Origin: Bacillota bacterium
GTDB taxonomy: Bacteria; Bacillota_A; Clostridia; DSM-8532
DNA length: 14,239 nucleotides
Direction of reading: 5' to 3'
Assembly (NCBI GenBank): GCA_023424865.1
Contig: JAFADM010000102.1
Location: forward strand, 1-14,239
The position numbers and the translations under genes were made by a program. Shown here in pieces: positions 2,794 to 14,239 of the stretch. Within the stretch, counting starts at the first letter, position 1. Every line of letters begins with the position of its first letter. Below the pieces are notes generated by a model that had not been told where the DNA came from, ran no database searches, and saw nothing but the letters and a program-made list of their open reading frames with translations.

Positions 2794-5160
2794 TCACAGC
2801 TTCTTTTCCGTTTTAATAACCTGCATAGCCCTCATGGCATTCAATATGGCAATGATGGTAACGCCTACATCTCCAAATACGGCCTCCCACATTGTTGCAT
2901 AGCCAAGCGCTGCCAGGACTAAAACAACAACCTTTATACCCATGGCAAACAGAATATTTTGCCATACTATGGTTTTAGTCTTGCGCGCCACCCGTATTGC
3001 AGAAACAATTTTAGAGGGCTCATCGGTCATTAAAACAACATCCGCCGCTTCAATGGCGGCATCGGAGCCCAGGGCTCCCATTGCAATTCCGATATCGGCT
3101 CTTGCAAGCACCGGAGCGTCATTAATACCATCCCCAACAAACACAAGCCTGCCGCGGGTCTTTTTCTTTTTCTCCAGCTTTTCGAGCTGTTCTACCTTCT
3201 GGTGGGGCAGAAGCTCTGTATATACGGCATCCAAACCGATCTCCCGTGCTATGGCTTCGCCTGTGGCCTTGCTGTCGCCGGTGAGCATTGCCGTATTATT
3301 TATTCCCAGAGCTTTTAAATCCTTTATGGCCTTTCGGCTGTCCGGTTTCAATTCATCGGAAATTACGATATACCCCGCCAATTCACCGTCTACCGCCAGG
3401 TATACGACAGTGCCCAACGCATTTATGGACTGCCATTGTATCCCTGCCGAATCCATAAGCTTTCCGTTGCCGGCCAGTACCTGCCGGCCGTCTACCTTAA
3501 CCCGGATGCCCTGACCAGGTATTTCTTCCTGTTCCGCAAGCCTGCTTCCGTCGATTTTTCTGCCATAGGCCTTTTGAATGGACAGCGCAATGGGATGGTT
3601 GGAAAAGCTTTCGGCGTGGGCGGCGTAGTTGAGAAGCTCCTGCTCCTCCCAGCCCTTCTGTCCATATATCCGGGTTACCTTAAAAATTCCTCTCGTAAGT
3701 GTTCCCGTTTTATCAAACACAATGGTATCAATATTGTTGAGAGCTTCCAGGAAATTACTCCCCTTCACCAGGATACCGTTTCTGGAAGCACCTCCGATTC
3801 CGCCGAAGAAGCTCAGCGGAATGGAAATGACTAATGCACAGGGGCAGGATACAACCAGAAAGGCCAACGCGCGGTAGGTCCACTCCCCGTATGTAGCTCC
3901 GGGAATAAGCAATGGAGGAATAAGCGCCAGTGCCAGTGCGGCAAATGCAACTACCGGGGTATAGTACCTTGCAAACTTCGTAATAAAATTTTCAGTAGGC
4001 GCTTTTTTGCTGCTGGCATTCTGAACAAGGTCTAAAATTCTGGAAACGGTGGATTCACCAAATTCTTTTGATACCTCAATAAGGAGCAGCCCGCTTTTAT
4101 TGATGGAGCCGGATAACACCTCACTTCCCGGCTCCACATCACGAGGCAGGGATTCACCGGTTAACGCGGAAGTATCCAAAGCCGAATAGCCTTCCAGTAT
4201 ACGGCCATCCAAAGGTATTTTTTCCCCCGGCTTTACTGCGATTGTGTCACCGATTCCCACTTCCTCAGGATTAACCCTGCGTATCTCGTCCCCGATTTTC
4301 AAATTGGCAAAATCAGGCCTTATGTCCATCAAAGCAGAGATAGACTTACGCGAACGGTTGACCGCAAGCCGCTGGAAGGCCTCCCCGATCTGGTAAAAGA
4401 GCATAACGGCCACACCTTCCGGGTACTCGCCTATAATAAAAGCACCGATGGTTGCTACGCTCATCAGAAAGTTTTCATCAAAGACCTGTCCTTTTGAAAT
4501 GTTCTTCAGTGCCCTAAGGACCACTTCGCCGCCAACCAGCAGATAGCTTGTCAGAAAGAGCAGGAATCTTGCGGGCAGAGCAAAGTCGAATAAGGTTCCT
4601 GCGAGAAAAAGTGCTGCTCCTGTACATAGAGCAATACGGTGAATCCATTTTTTACGATTTCCGGAAGAATCCGCCGCCGGCTTCTTATCCGTATAGGAAA
4701 TCTGAATAGCAGGCTCAATATCCAGAGCTATTTGGGATGCCTGACGAACAATGGAGGGAAGGTCCTTTTTATCCAGCACTTCTATCGTCAGCTTTTGAGA
4801 AACGAAATCCAAGCTGGTCCTTTTTACACCCTGAAGTCCGCCTACCCGGGACTCAATCTTTCGTCCGCAGTCGGCACAGCAAAGGCCCAGCAAATATAAG
4901 ACCTTTTGCCCCGGCTGAGTGATTTCCTTTTCTTTCATGACCACACTCGAATCATGTCGCTTTATAATAGCATCGGCCTGAGCAACAAGGCTATTGGTCT
5001 TTTCCGTGTCGTTAATTTCCATAATCAAGGTTTTTGATACAAAGTCCACGGCTGCAGAGGCTATGCCATTAAGCTTGCCTACATCCCGTTCAATTTTGGC
5101 TGCGCAGTTTCCGCAGCACAAACCCTCTAAAATAAATTCTTTTTTTATTACCGTATCCAT
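2794..5160 (-). CDS. cadA: P1B-2 type heavy-metal (Zn/Cd/Pb) translocating ATPase with two N-terminal HMA domains
   Basis: This ATPase exports divalent soft metals across the cytoplasmic membrane. In the 788-aa form the order is HMA1 (about 7-75, CCGNC at 15-19), HMA2 (about 87-155, CCADC at 94-98), membrane helices from about 170, actuator TGES (334-337), the metal-binding CPC of SCPCALV (439-441), phosphorylation site DKTGT (483-487), HP of the nucleotide domain (522-523), GDGIND hinge (676-681) and the last two helices. Lys743 and Asp764 of the final helices, together with CPC, are the membrane metal-site signature of the Zn/Cd/Pb subgroup rather than the Cu subgroup. I chose ATG at 5160 because the peptide from there aligns with the start of the neighbouring HMA protein; a GTG at 5169 would add three residues. 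It is the last gene of the cadC-hma-cadA cluster, 25 bp after the HMA gene. Both HMA motifs carry Cys where related pumps usually have Asp. Confidence 0.96.
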   Translation of the reverse strand: MDTVIKKEFILEGLCCGNCAAKIERDVGKLNGIASAAVDFVSKTLIMEINDTEKTNSLVAQADAIIKRHDSSVVMKEKEITQPGQKVLYLLGLCCADCGRKIESRVGGLQGVKRTSLDFVSQKLTIEVLDKKDLPSIVRQASQIALDIEPAIQISYTDKKPAADSSGNRKKWIHRIALCTGAALFLAGTLFDFALPARFLLFLTSYLLVGGEVVLRALKNISKGQVFDENFLMSVATIGAFIIGEYPEGVAVMLFYQIGEAFQRLAVNRSRKSISALMDIRPDFANLKIGDEIRRVNPEEVGIGDTIAVKPGEKIPLDGRILEGYSALDTSALTGESLPRDVEPGSEVLSGSINKSGLLLIEVSKEFGESTVSRILDLVQNASSKKAPTENFITKFARYYTPVVAFAALALALIPPLLIPGATYGEWTYRALAFLVVSCPCALVISIPLSFFGGIGGASRNGILVKGSNFLEALNNIDTIVFDKTGTLTRGIFKVTRIYGQKGWEEQELLNYAAHAESFSNHPIALSIQKAYGRKIDGSRLAEQEEIPGQGIRVKVDGRQVLAGNGKLMDSAGIQWQSINALGTVVYLAVDGELAGYIVISDELKPDSRKAIKDLKALGINNTAMLTGDSKATGEAIAREIGLDAVYTELLPHQKVEQLEKLEKKKKTRGRLVFVGDGINDAPVLARADIGIAMGALGSDAAIEAADVVLMTDEPSKIVSAIRVARKTKTIVWQNILFAMGIKVVVLVLAALGYATMWEAVFGDVGVTIIAILNAMRAMQVIKTEKKL

Positions 5161-5185
5161 AACACCCACCGTTTCCTGCCTCTGC

Positions 5186-5413
5186 TCAGGCTTCCTTTAC
5201 CACAATGTCCTCGTCGTGGGAAACAGCAATGCGGGTAATTGCTTCAGTCAATTCCGTCAGCTCCTCGCTGTATTCAATAGAAAGAACTGTGGTTGCCGTA
5301 TTAACCTTTACAGATTTAACACCTTCAAGCAATCTGGCATCTTTCTCAATTTTGGCGGCACAATTTCCGCAGCATAAACCCTCTAGGATATAATTTCTTT
5401 TTAGTGTTGACAT
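5186..5413 (-). CDS. Stand-alone HMA-domain protein (putative metallochaperone or detached CadA N-domain)
   Basis: The 75-aa protein is one complete heavy-metal-associated (ferredoxin-like) domain and nothing else. Its metal loop LEGLCCGNCAAKIE (Cys14, Cys15, Cys18) is nearly identical to that of HMA1 of the CadA encoded just downstream, which suggests origin by duplication of that domain. Proteins of this size, such as CopZ, carry a metal ion to the N-domain of a P-type ATPase. A Zn/Cd/Pb role is inferred from the neighbouring pump and from the CadC-type regulator upstream. The ATG at 5413 is preceded by AGGAAG seven bases upstream. Possible operator repeats lie in the gap before it. It could instead act as a metal buffer rather than as a chaperone. 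Confidence 0.88.
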   Translation of the reverse strand: MSTLKRNYILEGLCCGNCAAKIEKDARLLEGVKSVKVNTATTVLSIEYSEELTELTEAITRIAVSHDEDIVVKEA

Positions 5414-5478
5414 CGTTAAACTTCCTTTCTTGTAAATCGCTAATAAAACTAAAATTAGAAATCCTGTTCATATAAAGC

Positions 5479-5520
5479 TGAACGGTTGAACGGTTGAACA
5501 ATTGATTCATCAATCAACTG
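5479..5520. promoter_or_regulatory. Putative CadC operator upstream of the HMA-cadA genes
   Basis: Reading + strand, TGAACGGT occurs twice in tandem (5479-5486, 5487-5494), followed by TGAACAAT (5495-5502) and TGATTCAT (5503-5510), a strict 8-bp phase. The palindrome ATTGAT-TC-ATCAAT is centred at about 5507. TGAA/TTCA half-sites of this kind are typical for ArsR/SmtB-family operators. I could not fix a convincing promoter here. Confidence 0.5.
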
Positions 5521-5542
5521 TTATAGCAAAAAAATTCTAAAA

Positions 5543-5572
5543 GCCTAAAAAGGTCCGCCTCCTTTCATTGGC
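5543..5572 (-). terminator. Possible weak terminator or attenuating hairpin after the cadC-type gene
   Basis: On the minus strand, GCC-aatg-AAAGG and CCTTT-tta-GGC can pair around a 7-nt loop, followed by a T-rich stretch. It lies 8 bp after the regulator stop codon. It could reduce read-through, so that hma-cadA depends partly on its own promoter. The stem is short. Confidence 0.35.
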
Positions 5573-5580
5573 TTCACAGC

Positions 5581-5949
5581 TCACTTCTCGGAGATATGAA
5601 GCAAACCCTGGGCAAATATATTTTTTACATGCTCATCCGACAGTGAATAGTAAACTATTTTGCCGTCTCTCCTGTATTTTACAAGCTTTGTTTGCTTAAG
5701 CACCCTGAGATGGTGGGAGATGGACGACTTGGTCATGCCCAGCAGAACTGCGATGTCACACACACACATCTCCGCTTTAAATAAGGCATAAAGTAATTTA
5801 ACCCGGGTTGAGTCCCCGAAGATCTTAAAGAGGTCCGCCAGCTCCATAAGCTTTTCTTCGTCTGCCATGTGCTCCCGGACTTCATTGACCACATCTTCAT
5901 GAATGGTATTGCAGTCGCATCGATCGAACTCTGCTGTATATAAACCCAT
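5581..5949 (-). CDS. cadC: ArsR/SmtB-family metal sensor repressor, CadC type
   Basis: The 122-aa winged-helix repressor releases DNA when it binds Zn, Cd or Pb. The fold is seen in FKIFGDSTRVKLLYAL, the recognition region MTKSSISHHLRVLKQ and the wing YRRDGKIVYYSL. Two known metal sites are complete. The alpha3N site has Cys62 and Cys64 in EMCVCD plus N-terminal Cys11 and Cys13. The alpha5 site has Asp105, His107, His118 and Glu121, with the +2/+13/+16 spacing of SmtB. I chose ATG at 5949 because AGGAG lies 8 bases upstream; a GTG at 5958 would overlap that site. It heads the metal-export cluster. Operator-like repeats lie at its own promoter and before the HMA gene, so it probably represses both itself and the pump. 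Confidence 0.94.
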   Translation of the reverse strand: MGLYTAEFDRCDCNTIHEDVVNEVREHMADEEKLMELADLFKIFGDSTRVKLLYALFKAEMCVCDIAVLLGMTKSSISHHLRVLKQTKLVKYRRDGKIVYYSLSDEHVKNIFAQGLLHISEK

Positions 5950-5973
5950 AAAATGCACTCCTAATTATAAACA

Positions 5974-6032
5974 GTTGAATAGTTGAATTATTGTTCAATC
6001 ATTATTTTATGTTTGACCTTCAAATATGTCAA
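5974..6032 (-). promoter_or_regulatory. Promoter with overlapping operator for the cadC-type gene
   Basis: On the minus strand TTGACA (6027-6032), a 17-bp spacer and TAAAAT (6004-6009) make a near-consensus promoter. Directly downstream, around the expected start of transcription, TTGAATAG-TTGAATTA-TTGTTCAA (+ strand 5975-5998) shows the same 8-bp phasing as the site before the HMA gene. A bound repressor would block initiation. Confidence 0.7.
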
Positions 6033-6107
6033 TGCTTTTATAACTTTCTATTCCAATTCATAACGGGTTCCTCTTATTCTCCTTTGTATCTAAACCCAAT
6101 AGCAAAT

Positions 6108-6139
6108 AAAAAACACCCGCTCAAAAGCCAGGGGGGCGC
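6108..6139 (-). terminator. Possible second terminator of the metal-uptake operon
   Basis: On the minus strand GCGCCC (6134-6139) can pair, with two G-T wobbles, with GGGTGT, followed by a run of T (A-run at 6108-6113 on the + strand). The stem is weak and the loop long, so this is tentative. Confidence 0.3.
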
Positions 6140-6192
6140 CTAAAGCTCCTCCCTTCAACCAATTTTCTTACGCAAATGGCTGCCAATTAAGA

Positions 6193-6231
6193 ACGGAGCA
6201 GTTCCACGCCAGGAATCTGCTCCGTTTTTTT
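6193..6231. terminator. Intrinsic terminator after the metal-uptake operon
   Basis: A perfect 9-bp stem ACGGAGCAG (6193-6201) / CTGCTCCGT (6217-6225) has seven T on its right (6225-6231). On the minus strand, where the operon is read, the hairpin is followed by TCTTAATT, a poorer tract. It is therefore strongest in the + direction but is placed just past the last gene of the minus-strand operon, 10 bp before its stop codon. Confidence 0.7.
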
Positions 6232-6240
6232 CTGAATTAT

Positions 6241-7359
6241 TCAGCTTAAGAACAGGGCCTCGTAATTTTGAACGCTTACCTGTCTCCCATTGTCGGTAAG
6301 CTTTACGGCATTGCCCTCCAGGGCGACACAGCCCTCTTTTACAAGCTGGGATACTATTTTTTTTGTAAAGATTTCAGGCCAGCGCAGCTGAGATTGCAGT
6401 GTAATCATTCCGGTGTCCCTCTGCATATCCCCTGCCCCATCATGGTTGTAAAGATGAAAAAGCAGCGTTATTTTTGCAAAATCTATTTTTTGTCTCTTAC
6501 GCCTGCTGAGGGAGCTGACTAGGCCTCTGCCGGGAGCAAAAATGAATGCGGTCAGAAAAAGGATACCCGTCATCACGGCCATGCTTCCGGCAATGGAAAC
6601 ATCCAGAAGTACCGCCGCCTGATAACCAAGCAGACCGTTCAGGGCACCGATAATGCCGCTGTAAATCAGCATTCGCTTCAAATCATCCGTAAGAAGATAT
6701 GCCGTAACCGGCGGTCCAATCATAAAGGCTACCACCAATACGGAGCCCACAGCCTGAAAGGTTCCTACGGCTGTAAGCGAAACCAGGGTCATAAGCACAT
6801 AATGCATTAAGGTAGGTGCAAAACCCAAAACAGCCGCCAGAATCGGATCAAAGGTTGCCAATTTAAGCTCCTTAAAGAAAAATCCGATTACCGCAAGATT
6901 AATCAGCAGGAGGCCTCCTGTGGTATAAATCGCTTTTGCCCCTATGTCCGTGCCTGCCACTACCATCCTGTCAAAGGGCGCAAAGGCCAGCTCTCCTAAA
7001 AGAACCGAATCCGTGTCCAAATGAACCGATCCCGCATATCGTGTGATAAGTATAATGGCTATGGAAAACAGCAATGGAAAAACGACGCCGATGGACGCAT
7101 CCTCTGCCAGAAGACGCGTACGGCTGAGGGTTTCCGTCAGCCAGACGGTAACCACACCCATAAACGCTGCACCCACTATCAGCAATGGAGAGGAAAGATT
7201 GTGGGTTACAAAAAAGGCCAGTACGATACCCAACAAAATGGTATGTGTAATGGAATCGGACATCATGGACATTTTTCGCAATACAAGAAAGACACCCGGC
7301 AGCGCACAGCTTACCGCCACGATAACAGCTATAATCTGAATTTCAATTTGAGGGGACAT
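6241..7359 (-). CDS. troD: Metal (Mn/Zn) ABC transporter permease with C-terminal winged-helix-like extension
   Basis: This is the second membrane subunit of the uptake transporter. Residues 1-280 form the ABC-3 permease domain with several hydrophobic helices. It shows VFLVLRKMSMMSDSITHTILLG and, near the end, FAPGRG, which is also present in the sister permease. Residues about 287-372 are hydrophilic and resemble a DNA-binding winged-helix module (ITLLFHLYNHDG... KKIVSQLVKEGCVALEGNAVKLTDNGRQ), as known for some longer MntC/TroD proteins. The ATG at 7359 is preceded by AGGAGGTGA five bases upstream. A GTG at 7368 would lie inside that site. The start overlaps the end of the preceding permease gene by 17 bp, so translation is probably coupled. 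It is the last gene of the operon. The extension may sense metal or regulate the pore; its function cannot be read from the sequence. Confidence 0.93.
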   Translation of the reverse strand: MSPQIEIQIIAVIVAVSCALPGVFLVLRKMSMMSDSITHTILLGIVLAFFVTHNLSSPLLIVGAAFMGVVTVWLTETLSRTRLLAEDASIGVVFPLLFSIAIILITRYAGSVHLDTDSVLLGELAFAPFDRMVVAGTDIGAKAIYTTGGLLLINLAVIGFFFKELKLATFDPILAAVLGFAPTLMHYVLMTLVSLTAVGTFQAVGSVLVVAFMIGPPVTAYLLTDDLKRMLIYSGIIGALNGLLGYQAAVLLDVSIAGSMAVMTGILFLTAFIFAPGRGLVSSLSRRKRQKIDFAKITLLFHLYNHDGAGDMQRDTGMITLQSQLRWPEIFTKKIVSQLVKEGCVALEGNAVKLTDNGRQVSVQNYEALFLS

Positions 7360-8266
7360 TAGGCTCACCTCCTTCGAACCTTAGCCGCAGTTTGTTTTTG
7401 CGGTGCTGATAAAGCTTATGAAGAACACCCCTTCCAGGGGCAAAAAGAACGCTTACCATAACAATGGCGCTGACGCACACCACAATGGCCGGTCCTGTGG
7501 GCAATTTGGCAACCAACGAGCTAGCTGCCGTTCCGGCCACCCCGGATACCGCACCGAAAGCCGAAGAAAGCAGCACCATAACCCACAGCCTGTTGGTCCA
7601 CTGCCTTGCCGCCACCGCCGGCGTAATCAGCATGGCGCTCATAAGAATGACACCCACCGTCTGAAGACCGATAATAATGGCCAGGACGATCATGGCGGAA
7701 AGCAGCAGGTTCAGTTTTTTGGATGAAAAGCCAAGACTTTGTGCGTAATCGCTGTCAAAGGTAAAAAGCTTGAATTCCTTCCAAAACAGCACAACCACGG
7801 TCAGCAGCACCCCACCGCAAATGGCGGTGAGGAGGATATCTCTTTGAAGCAGGGTGGAGGCCTGCCCGAAGATGAATCGCTTAAGCCCTGCCTGGTTGGA
7901 ATTAGGAATCTTCTGCACGTAGGTCAAAAGCACCAGGCCCAGTCCAAAAAACACCGACATCACCAGGGCCAGAGCGCTGTCAAACTTAATACGGGTGTGA
8001 CGTACAATACCCAGTATGAACAGGGTTGCCAAAAGGCCTGAAACAAGGGCGCCTATAAGCAGTACTTCCGTGTTTTTGCTCCCCAGAAGCATAAATGCCA
8101 TAACGACACCGGGCAACGCGGAATGGGAAATACCATCACCTAAAAGGCTCTGCTTGCGGAGCACCGCAAAGCTTCCCAGCACACCGCTTATCAGCCCTAA
8201 AAGTGCGGATCCCAACGCTACTGTCTGAAAGGTATAATCACCAAGTAAAGAAATAAGTGTGCCCAT
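7343..8266 (-). CDS. troC: Metal (Mn/Zn) ABC transporter permease
   Basis: The 307-aa integral membrane protein belongs to the ABC-3 (ZnuB/MntB/TroC) family and would pair with the following permease to form the channel. It has multiple hydrophobic helices, GVLGSFAVLRKQSLLGDGISHSALPG near the N-terminus and FAPGRG near the C-terminus, followed by a short basic tail. I placed the start at ATG 8266, one base after the stop codon of the ATPase gene, with AGGAG 11 bases upstream. A GTG at 8278 would sit almost on top of that site. Its length is ordinary for the family, unlike its longer partner. The metal cannot be decided from the permease; the binding protein and regulator of the operon point to Mn and/or Zn. 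Confidence 0.93.
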   Translation of the reverse strand: MGTLISLLGDYTFQTVALGSALLGLISGVLGSFAVLRKQSLLGDGISHSALPGVVMAFMLLGSKNTEVLLIGALVSGLLATLFILGIVRHTRIKFDSALALVMSVFFGLGLVLLTYVQKIPNSNQAGLKRFIFGQASTLLQRDILLTAICGGVLLTVVVLFWKEFKLFTFDSDYAQSLGFSSKKLNLLLSAMIVLAIIIGLQTVGVILMSAMLITPAVAARQWTNRLWVMVLLSSAFGAVSGVAGTAASSLVAKLPTGPAIVVCVSAIVMVSVLFAPGRGVLHKLYQHRKNKLRLRFEGGEPNVPSN

Positions 8267-8267
8267 A

Positions 8268-9023
8268 TCATACCACACTCCTCAAAAGCTTTCCGGTACT
8301 CCGATAGGCTTTTTTTAAATTTTCTTCATGGAAGACCTCTTCCACCGGGCCGCTGGCAACAACACGCAGGTTGATAAGTGTCACCCAGTCGAAATAATCC
8401 GCAACCGTTTGCAGGTCGTGGTGCACCACCACAACGGTTTTTCCCTGTTCCTTAAGCTCCTTGAGGAGAAAGACAATGGCTTTTTCCGTTTGAGCGTCAA
8501 CACCTTTAAAGGGTTCGTCCATAAAGTAGACCTCTGCTTCCTGTGCCAGTGCCCGGGCTAAAAATACCCGCTGCTGCTGTCCGCCTGAAAGCTGACTAAT
8601 CTGCCGGGAGGCGTAATCCTCCATTCCAACCTTTCTGAGCATGGACCGCGCAAGCTCATAATCCGATTTACCCGGCCTGCGAATCCAGCCCAGCTTGCCG
8701 TAGCGTCCCATTAATACAATATCCTGGACAGTGGCCGGGAAATCCCAATCCACACTGCCGCTTTGTGGAACGTATCCGATGCGGTTTTTCATAGCACGCA
8801 CATCAGCGCTTTCATTAATAAACCGAACGGCGCCGGTGACAGGAACCAGCAAGCCCAGCATGGCCTTTATGAGTGTCGTTTTGCCCGCTCCGTTGGGTCC
8901 TACCACAGCCATGAGCTTTCCCTTGGGAATTTTAAGATCTATATCCCATAAAACAGGTTTAGCGTCATAAGCAACGGTAAGATCCTCCACCTCTACCGCA
9001 TAGTCCTGTATATGAATGTTCAT
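8268..9023 (-). CDS. troB: Metal (Mn/Zn) ABC transporter ATP-binding protein
   Basis: The 251-aa cytoplasmic ATPase drives the two permeases. All nucleotide-binding motifs are intact: Walker A GPNGAGKT (42-49), Q-loop glutamine 87 in YVPQ, signature LSGGQQQR (145-152), Walker B VYFMDEP (165-171) and the switch histidine 202 in VVHHDL. The SVDWDFPATVQDIVLMGRYG region is typical for the Mn/Zn/Fe importer subfamily. ATG at 9023 has AGGAGGG six bases upstream. An alternative ATG at 9041 forms an ATGA overlap with the end of the binding-protein gene but has no comparable ribosome binding site. The compact spacing on both sides places it within one transcript with the binding protein and the permeases. 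Confidence 0.95.
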   Translation of the reverse strand: MNIHIQDYAVEVEDLTVAYDAKPVLWDIDLKIPKGKLMAVVGPNGAGKTTLIKAMLGLLVPVTGAVRFINESADVRAMKNRIGYVPQSGSVDWDFPATVQDIVLMGRYGKLGWIRRPGKSDYELARSMLRKVGMEDYASRQISQLSGGQQQRVFLARALAQEAEVYFMDEPFKGVDAQTEKAIVFLLKELKEQGKTVVVVHHDLQTVADYFDWVTLINLRVVASGPVEEVFHEENLKKAYRSTGKLLRSVV

Positions 9024-9037
9024 AACAATCCCTCCTG

Positions 9038-9976
9038 TCATTTTATTGCATTTACGATGGTATCAATATTAGCCTTAAAGGTGAGGATATAGCTTTCAGC
9101 GCCTGAATCCTTTCCTCCCAGTGAATCCGAGTACAGCTCTCCTCCGATGGCCACCTCAAAGCCTCTTGCTTTAACCGCTGCCTGAAGTGCCTCAATGGTT
9201 TTTGGGGGAACCGAGGATTCAACAAAAATCGCTTTTATCTGACTTTCCACAATATAGTCCGCAAGGGCGCTGACATCCGCTGTACCTGCCTCCGCATCCG
9301 TGCTGATACCCTGAAGGCCCCGAACCTCAAAGCCATAAGCATTGCCGAAATAGCTGAACGCGTCGTGGGCCGTTACCAGTACCCGCTGATTTTCAGGCAG
9401 CTCGGCTGTGCGCTGGCGTATGTAGGCATCCAGCTCCTCCAGCTCCTTTAAGTAAGCTTCCAAATTAGCCTCATAGTCCGCAGCATTTTGAGGATCGGCC
9501 TTGGATAACCCTTCCGATACAACTCTTGCTGCATCCATCCAAAGAGCGACATCAAACCAGATATGGGGGTCATGCACTGAGCCTCCTCCGGCCCATTCAA
9601 GAAGCTTTGCTTCATCCAGGCCTTCTTCAATGCATATAACCGAATGCCCTTGTTCCGAAAGCGACTCCAGCACCTCGCCCATCTTTCCTTCCAGGTGCAG
9701 CCCGTTGTATACAATAACGTCGGATTTCTGCATAAGTGTCACATCACCTGCGCTGGCTTGATAAAGATGGGGATCAATACCGGGTCCCATAAGGCCGTTG
9801 ACAGTGACATGACTGCCTCCTATAACAGCGGATAAATCCGCCAGCATGGTTGTGGTTGCCACTATATTCACTGTATTTTCGCCTGAATCCGGACTTGCTG
9901 CCGGTTGGGCACAGCCTGCAAGCAAAAGTGTCACGCTTAAAAGAATACCGGTTAATTTTTTAAGTTTTTGTCTCAT
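9038..9976 (-). CDS. troA: Metal ABC transporter substrate-binding lipoprotein, TroA type
   Basis: This 312-aa cluster A-I binding protein captures metal outside the cell. The N-terminus is a lipoprotein signal peptide with lipobox LLAGC (Cys22). The four ligand positions of TroA are present: His70 (GIDPHLY), His138 (HDPHIWFD), His204 (VTAHDAF) and Asp284 (LYSDSLG). The GFEVRGLQGISTDAEAG and ESSVPPKTIEALQ segments resemble Treponema TroA more than streptococcal PsaA, which has Glu instead of the third His. There is no His-rich loop as in many ZnuA proteins. TroA-type proteins bind Zn and Mn. The start ATG at 9976 has AGGAGGT upstream. It lies 33 bp after the regulator gene and directly before the ATPase gene. 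Zn versus Mn is not decided by sequence alone. Confidence 0.95.
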   Translation of the reverse strand: MRQKLKKLTGILLSVTLLLAGCAQPAASPDSGENTVNIVATTTMLADLSAVIGGSHVTVNGLMGPGIDPHLYQASAGDVTLMQKSDVIVYNGLHLEGKMGEVLESLSEQGHSVICIEEGLDEAKLLEWAGGGSVHDPHIWFDVALWMDAARVVSEGLSKADPQNAADYEANLEAYLKELEELDAYIRQRTAELPENQRVLVTAHDAFSYFGNAYGFEVRGLQGISTDAEAGTADVSALADYIVESQIKAIFVESSVPPKTIEALQAAVKARGFEVAIGGELYSDSLGGKDSGAESYILTFKANIDTIVNAIK

Positions 9977-10009
9977 AATCTACCTCCTGATTTTAATTTG
10001 CCGTGATGG

Positions 10010-10663
10010 CTAATACACCCTCTCATCAACAAAAATCTGACATGCAGCCTTATAGCTGATTTGAACCTGCTTGCCTGCAAGGTCAAGCGTCAAGGGCCCT
10101 TCATAAGCTCCTATGCTTATGACTTTTACGGCAATGCCAATTTCAACGCCTAAATTCTGAAGGTAATCCATCAATTCTTTCTCTTCTGTAACCTTTCGTA
10201 CATAGGAAACCTCGTTTTCTGAAAGCTGGCTGAGGGGCCTCAAGGGATTTGTTCTTACCTTGCCGTCAGTATGAGGGATCGCATTGCCATGTGGGCAGTA
10301 CGCCGGATAATTCAGGAATTTGTCAAGCCGGTAAGAAAGGCGCAGCGGCGTAATATGCTCCAGTAATTCCGCATCCTCATGGGCCTCACTCCAGGAATAG
10401 TCAAGATGACGGATTAAGAAAACCTCCCAGAGCCTGTGTCCCCGAAGGAGCGAGATAGCTACCTCCAATCCCTTCTGTGTCAATCGTGTACCTTTATAGG
10501 CCTCATATTGAATTAAATCTTCACGACCAAGCTTGCCGAGCATCTCGGTTACCGAAGCCGGTGCTATTTTGAGGGCATCTGCTATTTGCTTGTTGCCCAC
10601 AAGACCTTCTGCTCCGCCCAGCTTATATATTTCCTTAAGATAATCCTCTTTATTGGGTGTCAT
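10010..10663 (-). CDS. mntR: DtxR-family Mn-responsive repressor (MntR/ScaR type) with FeoA-like C-terminal domain
   Basis: The 217-aa protein has an N-terminal winged helix (about 1-65), a dimerisation/metal domain (about 66-140) and a C-terminal SH3-like FeoA domain (about 145-215). Its ligand positions match by number those I recall for streptococcal ScaR/MtsR: Glu80, Cys123 and His125 of one site, and Asp7, Glu99, Glu102 and His103 of the other. The fourth ligand of the first site, Asp160, is Glu160 here. Glu99 instead of the Cys found in DtxR/IdeR favours Mn (or Zn) over Fe. With metal bound it should repress its own operon, which it heads; a palindrome lies just before the gene. ATG at 10663 has GGAGG seven bases upstream. 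Confidence 0.94.
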   Translation of the reverse strand: MTPNKEDYLKEIYKLGGAEGLVGNKQIADALKIAPASVTEMLGKLGREDLIQYEAYKGTRLTQKGLEVAISLLRGHRLWEVFLIRHLDYSWSEAHEDAELLEHITPLRLSYRLDKFLNYPAYCPHGNAIPHTDGKVRTNPLRPLSQLSENEVSYVRKVTEEKELMDYLQNLGVEIGIAVKVISIGAYEGPLTLDLAGKQVQISYKAACQIFVDERVY

Positions 10664-10975: not shown

Positions 10976-11004
10976 TTTACAATCCGATTTTCATAAAATA
11001 TACT
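10976..11004 (+). promoter_or_regulatory. Promoter of the leader-rsgA-kinase operon
   Basis: TTTACA (10976-10981), a 17-bp spacer and TATACT (10999-11004) each match the sigma-A consensus in five of six bases. Transcription would start near 11011, leaving a leader of about 294 nt before the GTPase gene. Confidence 0.72.
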
Positions 11005-11055
11005 GTAACCAGCCTATATAGGTAAATTCTCGTTCCGAAAGGAGATGTGTTTTTA

Positions 11056-11085
11056 ATGATGGTTTGTATGGTGATTTCGTCTTAA
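11056..11085 (+). CDS. Putative leader peptide MMVCMVISS
   Basis: The ATG at 11056 follows AAAGGAGATG (GGAG at 11041-11044) by a usable distance and encodes MMVCMVISS before TAA. It is the first ORF of the transcript that has a ribosome binding site, and it lies just ahead of the first terminator-like hairpin. Ribosome pausing on it could control folding of the leader. Its small size allows no homology argument. Confidence 0.45.
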   Translation: MMVCMVISS

Positions 11086-11111
11086 AACCAAATATTGGGC
11101 AAAGCAGAGAA

Positions 11112-11135
11112 ACGGAGAGATTATCCGTGTTTTTT
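11112..11135 (+). terminator. First terminator-like hairpin of the leader
   Basis: ACGGA (11112-11116) and TCCGT (11124-11128) pair around a 7-nt loop, followed by G and six T. The stem is short, so termination here may be partial. Confidence 0.5.
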
Positions 11136-11138
11136 GTT

Positions 11139-11189
11139 ATGCCGTCTACAGTACCTTTCGTGAATACTGCTGTTGGTGAGATACGATGA
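11139..11189 (+). CDS. Possible upstream ORF MPSTVPFVNTAVGEIR
   Basis: A 16-codon ORF starts at ATG 11139 and ends at TGA 11187, overlapping the ATG of the next small ORF in an ATGA. No clear ribosome binding site precedes it. The same frame is open back to 11022. Translation is uncertain. Confidence 0.2.
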   Translation: MPSTVPFVNTAVGEIR

Positions 11190-11206
11190 AGGTTGTATCT
11201 TTTTTT
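11179..11206 (+). terminator. Second terminator-like hairpin of the leader
   Basis: AGATAC (11179-11184) and GTATCT (11195-11200) pair perfectly around a 10-nt loop and run into seven T (11200-11206). Confidence 0.5.
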
Positions 11207-11308
11207 GTTTACAAATGCCGCAAACAGCAGCTTCTTTGGAGGCTGCTTGCCTGCGGTATTTTTACGTCCAAAAATAAGAAACATTTAGGAGTGAACAGAA
11301 AACAATGA
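11186..11308 (+). CDS. Possible 40-aa upstream ORF coupled to the GTPase gene
   Basis: The frame from ATG 11186 stays open for 40 codons, running through the last terminator hairpin, and ends with TGA at 11306-11308, overlapping the GTPase ATG (ATGA). A weak GGTGAG lies five bases before the start. The peptide (MKVVSFFVYKCRKQ...) is basic and unlike anything I know. If translated, it would couple leader translation to the GTPase gene, whose own AGGAG is 13 bases from its start, an unusually long gap. Confidence 0.25.
   Translation: MKVVSFFVYKCRKQQLLWRLLACGIFTSKNKKHLGVNRKQ
11213..11263 (+). terminator. Third, strongest hairpin of the leader, directly before the GTPase gene
   Basis: AAATGCCGCA (11213-11222) pairs with TGCGGTATTT (11252-11261, one G-T). 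Inside it AGCAGC (11226-11231) pairs with GCTGCT (11242-11247). TATTTTTA follows. This is the likely regulated terminator, because its left arm can also pair upstream (11167-11174). Confidence 0.65.
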
Positions 11309-12411
11309 TAGATTTGAAACTCTATGGTTATACAGAAACCGAAGAACCCTCTGATGGGCTATTGCCTGGAAGAGTTACGGAGCTTCGGCGGGAGCAATAT
11401 ACTGTTGTCACAGAGCGCGGCGAGGTAACGGCTATGCTTAAGGGCTCATTTTATCATCACTCGAAAGCACGGGGGAATTTTCCGTGCGTTGGTGATTTTG
11501 TGCTGCTTAGGTATAACGAGAACGGCGCTTCACTCATCGCTGAGTTACTGCCCCGCCGCTCGAAGTTTTCCCGGGCGGACTTTTCAGGCCATGCAGCGGG
11601 ATATGCCAAGACAATACTGGAACAGGTTGTCGCAACAAATTTTGACTATGTTTTTATCCTGTCATCCTTGAATTGGGATTTCAAGGTCAGCCGTATTATG
11701 CGCTATCTGACCCAGGCACGGCAAAGCGGCGGCCAGCCTGTTGTGATTTTAACAAAAGCAGATTTGGTCGAAAATTACAACCTGCCTTTGGCCGAGGTCA
11801 GACAATCGGTGTCCGATGTTCCGGTACATGCAATTTCCAGTCACTCAGGGTTGGGGTTGGATGCGCTGAAAAATTACTTGCTTCCTGGAAAGACAGTGGT
11901 GTTTCTCGGAATGTCCGGTGTGGGAAAATCATCGCTTCTCAATGCACTGATGGCGCAGGAGGTTATGGCGGTAAAGGCTATCCGCGAGGACGACAGCCGG
12001 GGCCGACACACGACGACGCACCGACAGTTGTTTATGCTTCCCTCCGGTGCAATGGTCATTGATACACCCGGAATGCGCGAACTCGGGCTTTTTGACGCGA
12101 ATGAAGGTATCCGTGCGGGTTTTGCAGATGTGGAGGAATTGTTTGGACAATGCCGCTTCAATGACTGCCGTCATAAAACCGAGCCGGGGTGTGCCGTTCT
12201 TGCCGCACTTGCCGATGGCTCATTACCCCGCCAGCGGTGGGACAGCTATCTTGCCCAGAAGCTTGAGAACAAGTTTGTGGATGACAAGGCCGGGTTTCTC
12301 ATCGACAAGCGGGCCCGAAACAAATCCATTGCCATGTGGAGCAAACAAAGAAAAACGGAGGATTCAGGAAATGAGCAACGACTCTTTAATAACAGAACAA
12401 ACACAGATTAA
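11305..12411 (+). CDS. rsgA: RsgA/YjeQ-like circularly permuted GTPase (ribosome small-subunit maturation)
   Basis: The 368-aa protein has an N-terminal OB-fold (about 20-85), a circularly permuted GTPase domain and a C-terminal zinc knuckle. The permuted motif order is visible: G4 TKAD (150-153), G5 SSH (178-180), G1 GMSGVGKS (202-209), the TTTH switch (236-239) and G3 DTPG (253-256). The zinc ligands are Cys283, Cys288, His290 and Cys296 in the usual C-x4-C-x-H-x5-C pattern. RsgA binds the 30S subunit and checks its late maturation using GTP. With an attenuator-like leader upstream and a kinase gene downstream, this looks like an inducible extra copy rather than the housekeeping gene, which in Firmicutes usually sits beside prkC/rpe. 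That a second copy exists is inference. The last 41 bp overlap the kinase gene. Confidence 0.93.
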   Translation: MIDLKLYGYTETEEPSDGLLPGRVTELRREQYTVVTERGEVTAMLKGSFYHHSKARGNFPCVGDFVLLRYNENGASLIAELLPRRSKFSRADFSGHAAGYAKTILEQVVATNFDYVFILSSLNWDFKVSRIMRYLTQARQSGGQPVVILTKADLVENYNLPLAEVRQSVSDVPVHAISSHSGLGLDALKNYLLPGKTVVFLGMSGVGKSSLLNALMAQEVMAVKAIREDDSRGRHTTTHRQLFMLPSGAMVIDTPGMRELGLFDANEGIRAGFADVEELFGQCRFNDCRHKTEPGCAVLAALADGSLPRQRWDSYLAQKLENKFVDDKAGFLIDKRARNKSIAMWSKQRKTEDSGNEQRLFNNRTNTD

Positions 12412-13411
12412 CCCTGAGACACTGACCTATGTTTTAAGCAAAATGCTCAATGCGGATATAGTCCATGCTAATTTCCGGACCAGGCAATTGCATGGCGGAA
12501 CCCTGGGCGATGTGCGTCTTGTCACAGGCATAGCGAAAGCTGCTGACGGCGGTAATTTGCCTTATAGCGTCGTTTTGAAGAAACAGAAAAAGTGGGAGCG
12601 CTATGCCGATCCCCTTTCCTGGCGCAGAGAATTTGATCTTTACGGTTCGGATTTGGGTTCTGCCTTCTCTGACTCCTTCCGCCGGCCAAAATGCTACCAT
12701 GCAGAGCTGAATGGCGATGTAATCCAATTATGGATGGAATATATCGACGGTGTATCCGGCTTAAACCTGACCGGCGAAATGTATGAATGTGCAGCCAGGG
12801 AGCTGGGGCGTTTTCAAGGCAGGATGTATGCCGGGCAACCGGCCGTATTACGGGAGCTCTCCAACCTCAGCAGTGTTGACTTTATGAAAAACGGCTATCT
12901 TCATTACAGATCATGGAGGGAGGTATACGATTACATACGCTCCGGGGACTGCGAGATTCCGAGACACCTGTGTCAAATGCTCATTGAGATTGATGAGCAT
13001 GCAGACGAAATATTCAGCCGCATTGAGAAACTGCCTGTGGTGCTGTGCCACAGAGATTTTTGGGTGACCAACTTATTCTATTCAGACGGCAAAATCATTC
13101 TCATCGACTGGGACACCGCCGGATGGGGCTACATGGGCGAGGACATCGCAAGCTTGCTTGCCGACGAGCCAGATGTTGATCACATGATTGACTATTACCA
13201 TAAATGCGTCCCGGCGTATTATAAAGGTTTTTCGGAATATGCGGACGTATCCCATATATCGGATCCTTGCATTCGGGAGCTAATCCTTGTTATGTTCGGT
13301 TACCGACTTATAGAATCATATAAATTCGCCAGATCCCCCGAGGAAAAAACGCTGCTCCGCAATACTCTTGAAAAAATCTATGAAATGGGAAGCAATAATA
13401 CAGATAATTGA
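12371..13411 (+). CDS. APH/choline-kinase-like phosphotransferase, substrate unknown
   Basis: The 346-aa protein has the aminoglycoside-phosphotransferase kinase fold. Visible are a likely ATP-contacting Lys70 in YSVVLKKQKKW, the hinge-like WMEYIDG (121-127), the catalytic loop HRDFWVTN (His227, Asp229, Asn234) and the metal-binding IDWDTA (Asp246). All key residues are present, so it should be active. The family phosphorylates small molecules, including aminoglycosides, macrolides, choline and fructosamines; nothing here fixes the substrate. I chose ATG 12371 because GGAGG lies about ten bases upstream. The open frame reaches back to 12047, but that part is the shadow of the GTPase gene. It overlaps the GTPase gene by 41 bp, so the two are transcribed together and their translation is probably coupled. 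A ribosome-drug modifying role is possible but unproven. Confidence 0.88.
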   Translation: MSNDSLITEQTQINPETLTYVLSKMLNADIVHANFRTRQLHGGTLGDVRLVTGIAKAADGGNLPYSVVLKKQKKWERYADPLSWRREFDLYGSDLGSAFSDSFRRPKCYHAELNGDVIQLWMEYIDGVSGLNLTGEMYECAARELGRFQGRMYAGQPAVLRELSNLSSVDFMKNGYLHYRSWREVYDYIRSGDCEIPRHLCQMLIEIDEHADEIFSRIEKLPVVLCHRDFWVTNLFYSDGKIILIDWDTAGWGYMGEDIASLLADEPDVDHMIDYYHKCVPAYYKGFSEYADVSHISDPCIRELILVMFGYRLIESYKFARSPEEKTLLRNTLEKIYEMGSNNTDN

Positions 13412-13541: not shown

Positions 13542-14239
13542 TTAGCGTCTTCCACCTCCCCCGCCGAAGCCGCCGCCACCGAAGCCGCCTCCGGTAGTGC
13601 CTGCCGTAGTTACGGTACCTGAAAGGGTAATATCCAAAAGCTTTGTGCCGCCTGAGTAGGTTCCCTCTGAATAAAGGCCGTCTTCTACTATACCGGATGA
13701 GCTTCCGCCATAGTACACGGTATACTGGGATCCGGATTTCAGCTCCGGTGAGCTTAAGACAAAGGTCTGGAACTGTTTGGACGGTGCAAAGGTCAGTATG
13801 GCCTTGCCGCTTGAATCCTCAACCCGTATCACGGTGCCCGCCTGGAGGGTATTGTCAAACCCAACCAGCATGGAAGCCTGTGAAGAGCTGTCGGAAGGCG
13901 CCTGGGCCATTCCTGCGCTGCCTGCGGCCACCAGATACCCGCCGTTGAGTGTAAAGGTACCGTCGTAATCCATTGCTCCGTTGCCCGAATTGGTCGGCCC
14001 GTTGACTATGACAATGCCGTCCTCCATCACGATGGATCCGTTGGAATCCAGTCCGTCTCCCCCCGCATCTACGGTAATATAGCCGCCGTTGATGGTAAGA
14101 AGATAATTGCCACCCTGGGTAAAGCTGTTCTGACCGGGACGCCCATTTACCGAGGAGCCGTCATTGCCTCCTGCAATATTGATGCCGTCGTCACTGGCTG
14201 TAACCCTTATGATGCCGTCATTGATAGTAACATTGGCGC
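13542..14239 (-). CDS. Carbohydrate-binding beta-helix protein (Cthe_2159-like), C-terminal part, cut by window edge
   Basis: The frame is open from the window edge to TAA at 13544-13542, so only the C-terminal 231 or so residues are seen. Repeating strands such as NDGIIRVTASDDGINIAGG, INGGYITVDAGGDGLDSNG and YDGTFTLNGGYLVAAG form a parallel beta-helix pattern. They are followed by AGMAQAPSDSSSQASMLVGF and a beta-rich end typical of the Cthe_2159 carbohydrate-binding family (PF14262). Such proteins are exported and bind acidic sugars or cellulose at the cell surface. The protein ends in a glycine-rich tail (GGGFGGGGFGGGGGRR) with no anchor motif. The signal peptide and any further domain lie beyond the window. 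The family is fairly clear from pattern; ligand and localisation are inferred. Confidence 0.85.
   Translation of the reverse strand, partial: ANVTINDGIIRVTASDDGINIAGGNDGSSVNGRPGQNSFTQGGNYLLTINGGYITVDAGGDGLDSNGSIVMEDGIVIVNGPTNSGNGAMDYDGTFTLNGGYLVAAGSAGMAQAPSDSSSQASMLVGFDNTLQAGTVIRVEDSSGKAILTFAPSKQFQTFVLSSPELKSGSQYTVYYGGSSSGIVEDGLYSEGTYSGGTKLLDITLSGTVTTAGTTGGGFGGGGFGGGGGRR

Follow-up and report, generated by a model that had tools for sequence, protein, structure and literature searches.

The locus raises the question of what a leader with several hairpins does in front of a gene for an RsgA-type GTPase, and which product it serves. The leader occupies positions 11011–11304 of the window (the whole 14,239-nt stretch of DNA that was analysed) and is followed on the same forward strand by the GTPase paralogue RsgA2 (11305–12411) and an APH-fold phosphotransferase (12371–13411). 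In our view the leader likely acts by ribosome-mediated transcription attenuation of the vmlR/hflXr type and controls the operon of these two enzymes, with a translation-blocking small molecule as the signal. Blockage of protein synthesis, probably by an antibiotic, would most likely switch the enzymes on.

A promoter-like site of the sigma-70 type (TTTACA-17-TATACT, 10976–11004) agrees with the consensus at 10 of 12 positions; the same scan returned 11 such sites within 3.1 kb, as compared to 5.5 expected. The Shine-Dalgarno sequence (SD) CGAAAGGAG (11036–11044) precedes the leader ORF (11056–11085), which starts with ATG at 11056, ends with TAA and encodes MMVCMVISS. Beyond it, the outer stem 1:1′ (11098–11143; GGCA at 11098–11101 with TGCC at 11140–11143, P 0.99 in the free RNA) surrounds T1 (11112–11136), a terminator-like hairpin (11112–11128, ACGGA/TCCGT) followed by GTTTTTTG and assigned by pattern scan and folding. 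The candidate anti-antiterminator 2:3 (11149–11169) pairs CAGTA (11149–11153) with TACTG (11165–11169) around the strongly conserved loop CCTTTCGTGAA (11154–11164), which is complementary to the leader ORF's own SD. Arm 3 of the antiterminator, CTGCTGTT (11167–11174), is perfectly complementary over 8 bp to arm 4, AACAGCAG (11223–11230); the two enclose T2 (11180–11206), a hairpin (11180–11199, GATACGA/TTGTATC) with 7 T. Arm 4 is also part of the main terminator T3 (11215–11263), whose hairpin (11215–11259) contains the stems ATGCCGCA/TGCGGTAT and AGCAGC/GCTGCT and is followed by TTTTT. The helix 2:3, its loop, T2 and T3 were assigned from alignment and folding, and the antiterminator arms from complementarity and covariation. 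The promoter, nonapeptide ORF, three T-run hairpins and 8-bp complementarity around T2 had been named in a preliminary description of the locus, and all were confirmed, as was the SD, by sequence, scan or folding.

The minimum free energy of the leader is −92.5 kcal/mol, with a mean of −67.2 for shuffled sequences (z −4.85; 1 of 200 shuffles as low), and T1, T2 and T3 form with P 0.92–1.0. A pattern scan listed T1 and a hairpin at 11242–11257, within the 3′ half of T3; T2 was absent from it. The antiterminator 3:4 and T3 are mutually exclusive, as had been proposed for the 8-bp pairing and the last terminator. When the transcript ends at 11231, 3:4 forms with P 0.94, and this falls to 0.0 after completion of T3. 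Folding was also run with a masked ribosome footprint, and the complete T3 wins at equilibrium in all conditions folded. This, together with the three T-run hairpins, would suit a plain brake of several terminators with constitutive low read-through, in which there is no translational regulation and the short ORF is incidental. Such a brake is very unlikely, since it would leave the covarying antiterminator and the frame-keeping ORFs described below without a role. The preliminary description had not mentioned that the antiterminator leaves T1 and T2 unbroken, and read-through at these two hairpins therefore needs some other reason. By analogy with the pause hairpin of vmlR, T2 may be a weak terminator or a pause site.

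In the attenuator that we favour, free translation of the leader ORF would let arm 2 hold arm 3; T3 would form and transcription would stop. Ribosomes stalled in the leader ORF, or not clearing it, would leave arm 3 free as arm 4 emerges, so that 3:4 would form ahead of T3 and RNA polymerase would read into the operon. A small molecule that inhibits translation is the most likely signal.

A search of genome contigs with the GTPase returned 396 relatives, and the 80 best ones were retained; the source assemblies are from Paenibacillus, Lysinibacillus, Psychrobacillus, Bacillus and Clostridia. Of 81 upstream regions, counting that of the window, 75 contained the leader according to iterated nhmmer (E ≤ 0.01). 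Alignment A1 contains 43 distinct cores from 76 aligned hits; 16 hits were left out because their length fell outside 110–170 nt, and a further 17 because they were near-duplicates. The covariance model R1 was built on A1 and does not contain the antiterminator. With cmsearch (E ≤ 0.01), R1 has a sense match in 74 of the 80 GTPase loci; 68 of the 74 score above the best antisense match (39.5 bits) and six weak ones score below it (L072, L061, L068, L065, L053 and L071). Antisense matches were not counted because we ascribe them to the near-palindromic stems of the model. The R1 match precedes the GTPase in 72 loci, a kinase in L061 and a methyltransferase in L076; in the latter two, RsgA2 is still present farther downstream. 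Six of the 80 loci show no R1 match (L042, L057 with 192 nt upstream, L070, L075, L077 and L078). Neither the window nor 10 homologous loci gave an Rfam match over the gathering score; weak matches (Spd-sr37, sRNA_1300 and others) lie far below the gathering scores and were set aside as chance. BLAST of the leader against plasmids and phages gave no match, viral contigs gave no match to a 21-base pattern, and a literature search (top-ranked matches, few subscription journals) found no description of the leader RNA. The window's leader represents a conserved RNA element that no Rfam family matches.

The paired arms covary. On A1, the terminator set (2:3, T2 and T3) has 28 two-sided cells versus 8.6 in shuffled alignments (0 of 500 as high); the 2:3 helix has 79.9% of its cells paired and zero two-sided changes. 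The antiterminator alone shows 2 two-sided cells on A1, which is not significant (94 of 500 shuffles as high). Alignment A2, with 77 rows (two antisense) from 78 sources, was fitted to R1; L149, L150 and L151 were above the E cut-off and lie outside it. On A2, 91.4% of the antiterminator cells are paired and 28 are two-sided versus 7.1 shuffled (0 of 500 as high), in shuffles which, as throughout, take no account of sequence relatedness. Versions of the antiterminator slid along A2 reach 10 two-sided cells at most. The number of pairs with any two-sided change on A2 is 5, which is not unusual (167 of 500 shuffles as high). In the divergent branch, the arms CTGCAAAT:ATTTGCAG (L129) and CTGTAAAC:GTTTGCAG (L076) replace CTGCTGTT:AACAGCAG. 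As arm 4 is shared with T3, three segments covary, as needed in an attenuator. The preliminary description had staked the attenuator on conservation of the paired arms among homologues, and the arms are both kept and covarying.

Short SD-led ORFs are found at the equivalent position in the homologous loci. A motif after the stop codon was identified in 67 of 103 loci, some of which share a genome, and all 67 have an in-frame SD-led ORF of 9–15 codons, with 50 different peptides; when applied to the two remaining frames, the same procedure succeeded for 8 and 3 of the 67. For the 36 loci without this motif, a looser search revealed a similar peptide in most, with exceptions such as L006, L053, L158 and L165. 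The length differences between the ORFs are whole codons, which argues for translation. The frame-keeping ORF and the mutual exclusion of antiterminator and T3 bear out the drug-attenuator layout originally suggested. The peptides follow, by eye, the loose consensus M-[AST]-...-V-[VIA]-x-[STA] and to our knowledge contain no known stalling motif. Several are rich in Val and Met (MMVCMVISS, MATTYMVVWS and MTAYMVLVVLT), a richness that speaks for an attenuator of the amino-acid type, whose leader ORF would sense tRNA charging with no drug involved. We regard this as highly improbable: the peptide composition drifts among loci (MSAGEVSAA, MTVNEKVIVS and MSVLVAREAVA), and no amino-acid biosynthesis genes are among those seen behind the leader.

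Few stretches of A1 are as well conserved as the loop CCTTTCGTGAA that separates arm 2 from arm 3, and in the window its positions 11154–11160 are complementary to the SD region at 11036–11042. Of 103 loci, 100 were evaluated, and in 83 of these the complementarity amounts to 8 bp or more out of 9. The predicted pairing (ViennaRNA) has P ≥ 0.5 in 59 of 79 loci, with a median of 0.92, and P 0.99–1.0 in the free window leader. An SD left uncovered by ribosomes would pair with the loop and favour the antiterminated state. These figures, and the RsgA-type nature of the controlled gene, are consistent with a switch that senses initiation capacity or a shortage of small subunits; few 30S subunits on the SD would allow it to pair with the loop, arm 3 would be freed and the operon would be turned on to mend subunits. 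The covariation of SD and loop is, however, marginal, with 290 of 10000 permutations as good (561 of 10000 for three positions outside the SD). Compensating changes occur in single loci (L043, L049, L069 and L136), and for the 25 loops that deviate, substitution of the consensus loop would improve the pairing in 15, weaken it in 4 and leave it equal in 6. Moreover, none of the kinase, acetyltransferase, methyltransferase and ABC transporter genes under the leader is annotated as an assembly factor, and genomes that keep the kinase can do without RsgA2 (see below). A switch for initiation capacity is thus unlikely, and the SD:loop pairing itself is put forward as a hypothesis because the complementarity is high but the covariation weak.

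In the favoured attenuator, the first gene read would be that of RsgA2, a circularly permuted GTPase identified by Pfam (RsgA_GTPase, 1.7e-46), TIGR00157 (160.7 bits, cut-off 100), motifs (G1, G3, G4 and zinc) and tree. The initial identification of the downstream gene as an RsgA-type paralogue holds. All ten leader genomes compared have the canonical rsgA plus one or two further full-length copies. R1 (E ≤ 0.01) matches before all 10 leader-type copies; it matches before none of the 10 canonical rsgA genes, none of the 6 third copies and none of 6 relatives taken from plasmid records. Weaker matches at chance level occur at L088 (E 0.28) and L173 (E 0.019). A quick tree was computed for 62 proteins, from which the third copy L095 and the relatives L075 and L151 are missing for want of a usable ORF. 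Its split of the canonical copies from all other sequences has a support of 100, and the leader label clusters (7 changes versus 20.6 in shuffles). Judged by the tree and the extra copy in 10 of 10 genomes, RsgA2 of the window is not an orthologue of the single housekeeping rsgA. The zinc motif C-x4-C-x-H-x5-C is found in 43 of 43 RsgA2-type sequences examined; counts of G1, G3 and HTT are of little use because most of the sequences were picked by those motifs. RsgA2 thus resembles canonical RsgA/YjeQ/CpgA in its RsgA GTPase domain, C-terminal zinc motif and TIGR00157 score above the cut-off, but falls in a separate clade, and the canonical genes have no leader.

Further RsgA paralogues without the leader were noted (L091–L096 and L172–L175), beside pnp in a Listeria record and beside a FosM gene on a Lysinibacillus plasmid. 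In L170 (Acetoanaerobium noterae), the region upstream of 2501 belongs to an RsgA2 relative with 58.6% identity and contains, by eye, an SD-led ORF (MKKFTNNLVVFV) and a single hairpin, with no R1 match; it is possibly a minimal form of the leader. A small RNHCP-domain protein adjoins RsgA2 in several Clostridia assemblies (L061, L062 and L063 by Pfam, L074 by eye).

The kinase ORF (12371–13411), absent from the preliminary description, overlaps the end of rsgA2 and encodes a protein of the APH type (Pfam APH, 54.7 bits) with HRDFWVTN and DWD motifs. It scores above the cut-off of no NCBIfam model, its sequence matches to solved structures are weak ones only (choline kinases), and its structure model has a mean pLDDT of 87.3. 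An APH-fold kinase follows RsgA2 in 55 of 80 loci; elsewhere, the leader heads a kinase alone, acetyltransferases, methyltransferases or ABC transporters. Genome scans that did not start from RsgA2 used stricter filters, with which weak matches are lost, and in these broad samples few genomes have the element: 12 of 391 genomes in the class of G011 and 13 of 398 in the class of G001. The G011 class gave 15 sense matches with RsgA2 first in 12; the other first genes encode two GNAT domains in one ORF (L141), a GNAT protein (L142) and an ABC transporter (L154). The G001 class gave 13 sense matches, and these loci have the kinase in 13 of 13 and an intact RsgA2 in 9 of 13. In the order of G001, a scan overlapping that of its class, the leader is present in 34 of 198 genomes. 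Second copies of the leader, in genomes chosen by RsgA2, stand before an ABC transporter (L127), a methyltransferase (L136) and a GNAT protein (L137). A reading of L137 and L142 as kinase–acetyltransferase fusions was half borne out, as Pfam gives the GNAT part alone in both; L142 also has a weak CotS-kinase match below the cut-off.

No intact rsgA2 remains in L156, L160, L161, L165, L207, L208 and L220, where the gene is missing altogether, reduced to a remnant or broken, but leader and kinase are kept; some of the breaks could be sequencing errors. L222 has a remnant of rsgA2 and no kinase was seen there. Several Paenibacillus-type genomes thus keep leader and kinase with rsgA lost or disrupted, so that the kinase rather than the GTPase is the steadier product in the Paenibacillus group. 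In Clostridia, RsgA2 is often found without the kinase. Of the proposal that the leader controls a ribosome biogenesis GTPase, the part concerning an RsgA-type gene downstream stands, but the leader also heads kinases, acetyltransferases, methyltransferases and ABC transporters, and in several lineages the kinase outlives the GTPase; control of a ribosome biogenesis GTPase as such is not supported. This content, with several mutually unrelated genes of resistance-like kinds, is that expected of an inducible response to a toxic small molecule.

Attenuated GTPase paralogues had been suggested to be a new kind of response unit; HflXr (lmo0762/rli80) of Listeria, which is induced by lincomycin and erythromycin, is a precedent (PMC6310831). 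Likened by description, hflXr shares with the present operon a ribosome-acting GTPase paralogue, a short leader ORF and an alternative terminator and antiterminator, but it belongs to the HflX family and its 14-amino-acid leader peptide contains RLR, whereas here the GTPase is RsgA and there is no RLR (PMC6310831). The leader of vmlR in Bacillus subtilis requires a ribosome stall on the uORF for induction and has an anti-antiterminator, a pause hairpin and an intrinsic terminator (PMC9226507), to which the candidate helix 2:3, T2 and T3 would correspond here. It differs in its three-codon uORF (MIN), its ARE-ABCF target and an extra SD-sequestering hairpin (PMC9226507). The leaders of tetracycline ribosomal protection genes (tet_protect) share by eye the short SD-led ORF, several hairpins and a last terminator abutting the gene. 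Homology to these tet(M)-type leaders was rejected: R1 has 0 matches up to E 10 in 19 tet_protect loci (13 of the 19 above the NCBIfam family cut-off), and by eye the leaders also differ. L176–L188, tetracycline-protection loci with multi-hairpin leaders and no R1 match, encode by eye the leader peptide MRQGILK in 11 of 13, with MQQGILK in L178 and MRHSIFK in L176.

The kinase would modify the translation-blocking molecule. RsgA clamps the top of h44 at the decoding centre (PMC9032327); if RsgA2 binds the decoding region near h44 in the same way, it would protect or recycle small subunits that carry the molecule. In Escherichia coli, a two- or fourfold drop in the gentamicin MIC followed deletion of rsgA (likewise of three other genes), and the cefotaxime MIC was also lowered (PMC10295648). 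From the position of RsgA at h44 and the effect on the gentamicin MIC, our guess is that the inducer might be a 30S-directed drug. A broader reading, which we offer as speculative and rather doubtful, is that a cassette-like regulon, governed by an undescribed attenuator RNA, counters a class of translation inhibitors acting at or near the decoding region of the small subunit. RsgA2 would then use GTP to protect the drug target or to rescue subunits, and would add a third kind of such factor to the TetM and ABC-F/HflX types; kinases, acetyltransferases, methyltransferases and exporters that deal with the same drug would be its partners, and the switch would read ribosome occupancy via the SD:anti-SD pairing within the leader. 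Through the leader, a drug-response regulon of Bacillota that is uncharacterised and probably intrinsic becomes accessible to study. The molecule that switches it on should be a substrate or target of the downstream proteins, drug protection of ribosomes by an RsgA paralogue becomes testable, and a leader reporter could act as a sensor for the inhibitor.

Behind the kinase, a 162-amino-acid ORF on the reverse strand (13542–14030) has a glycine-rich end and no Pfam match. On the other side, a DtxR/MntR-type regulator adjoins the leader on the opposite strand. Metal genes extend from 2794 to 10663 and include a heavy-metal P-type ATPase, an ArsR-type regulator and a metal ABC transporter (the binding protein assigned by NCBIfam, the rest by eye). 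A short ORF at 5186–5413 resembles, by eye, the N-terminus of this P-type ATPase.
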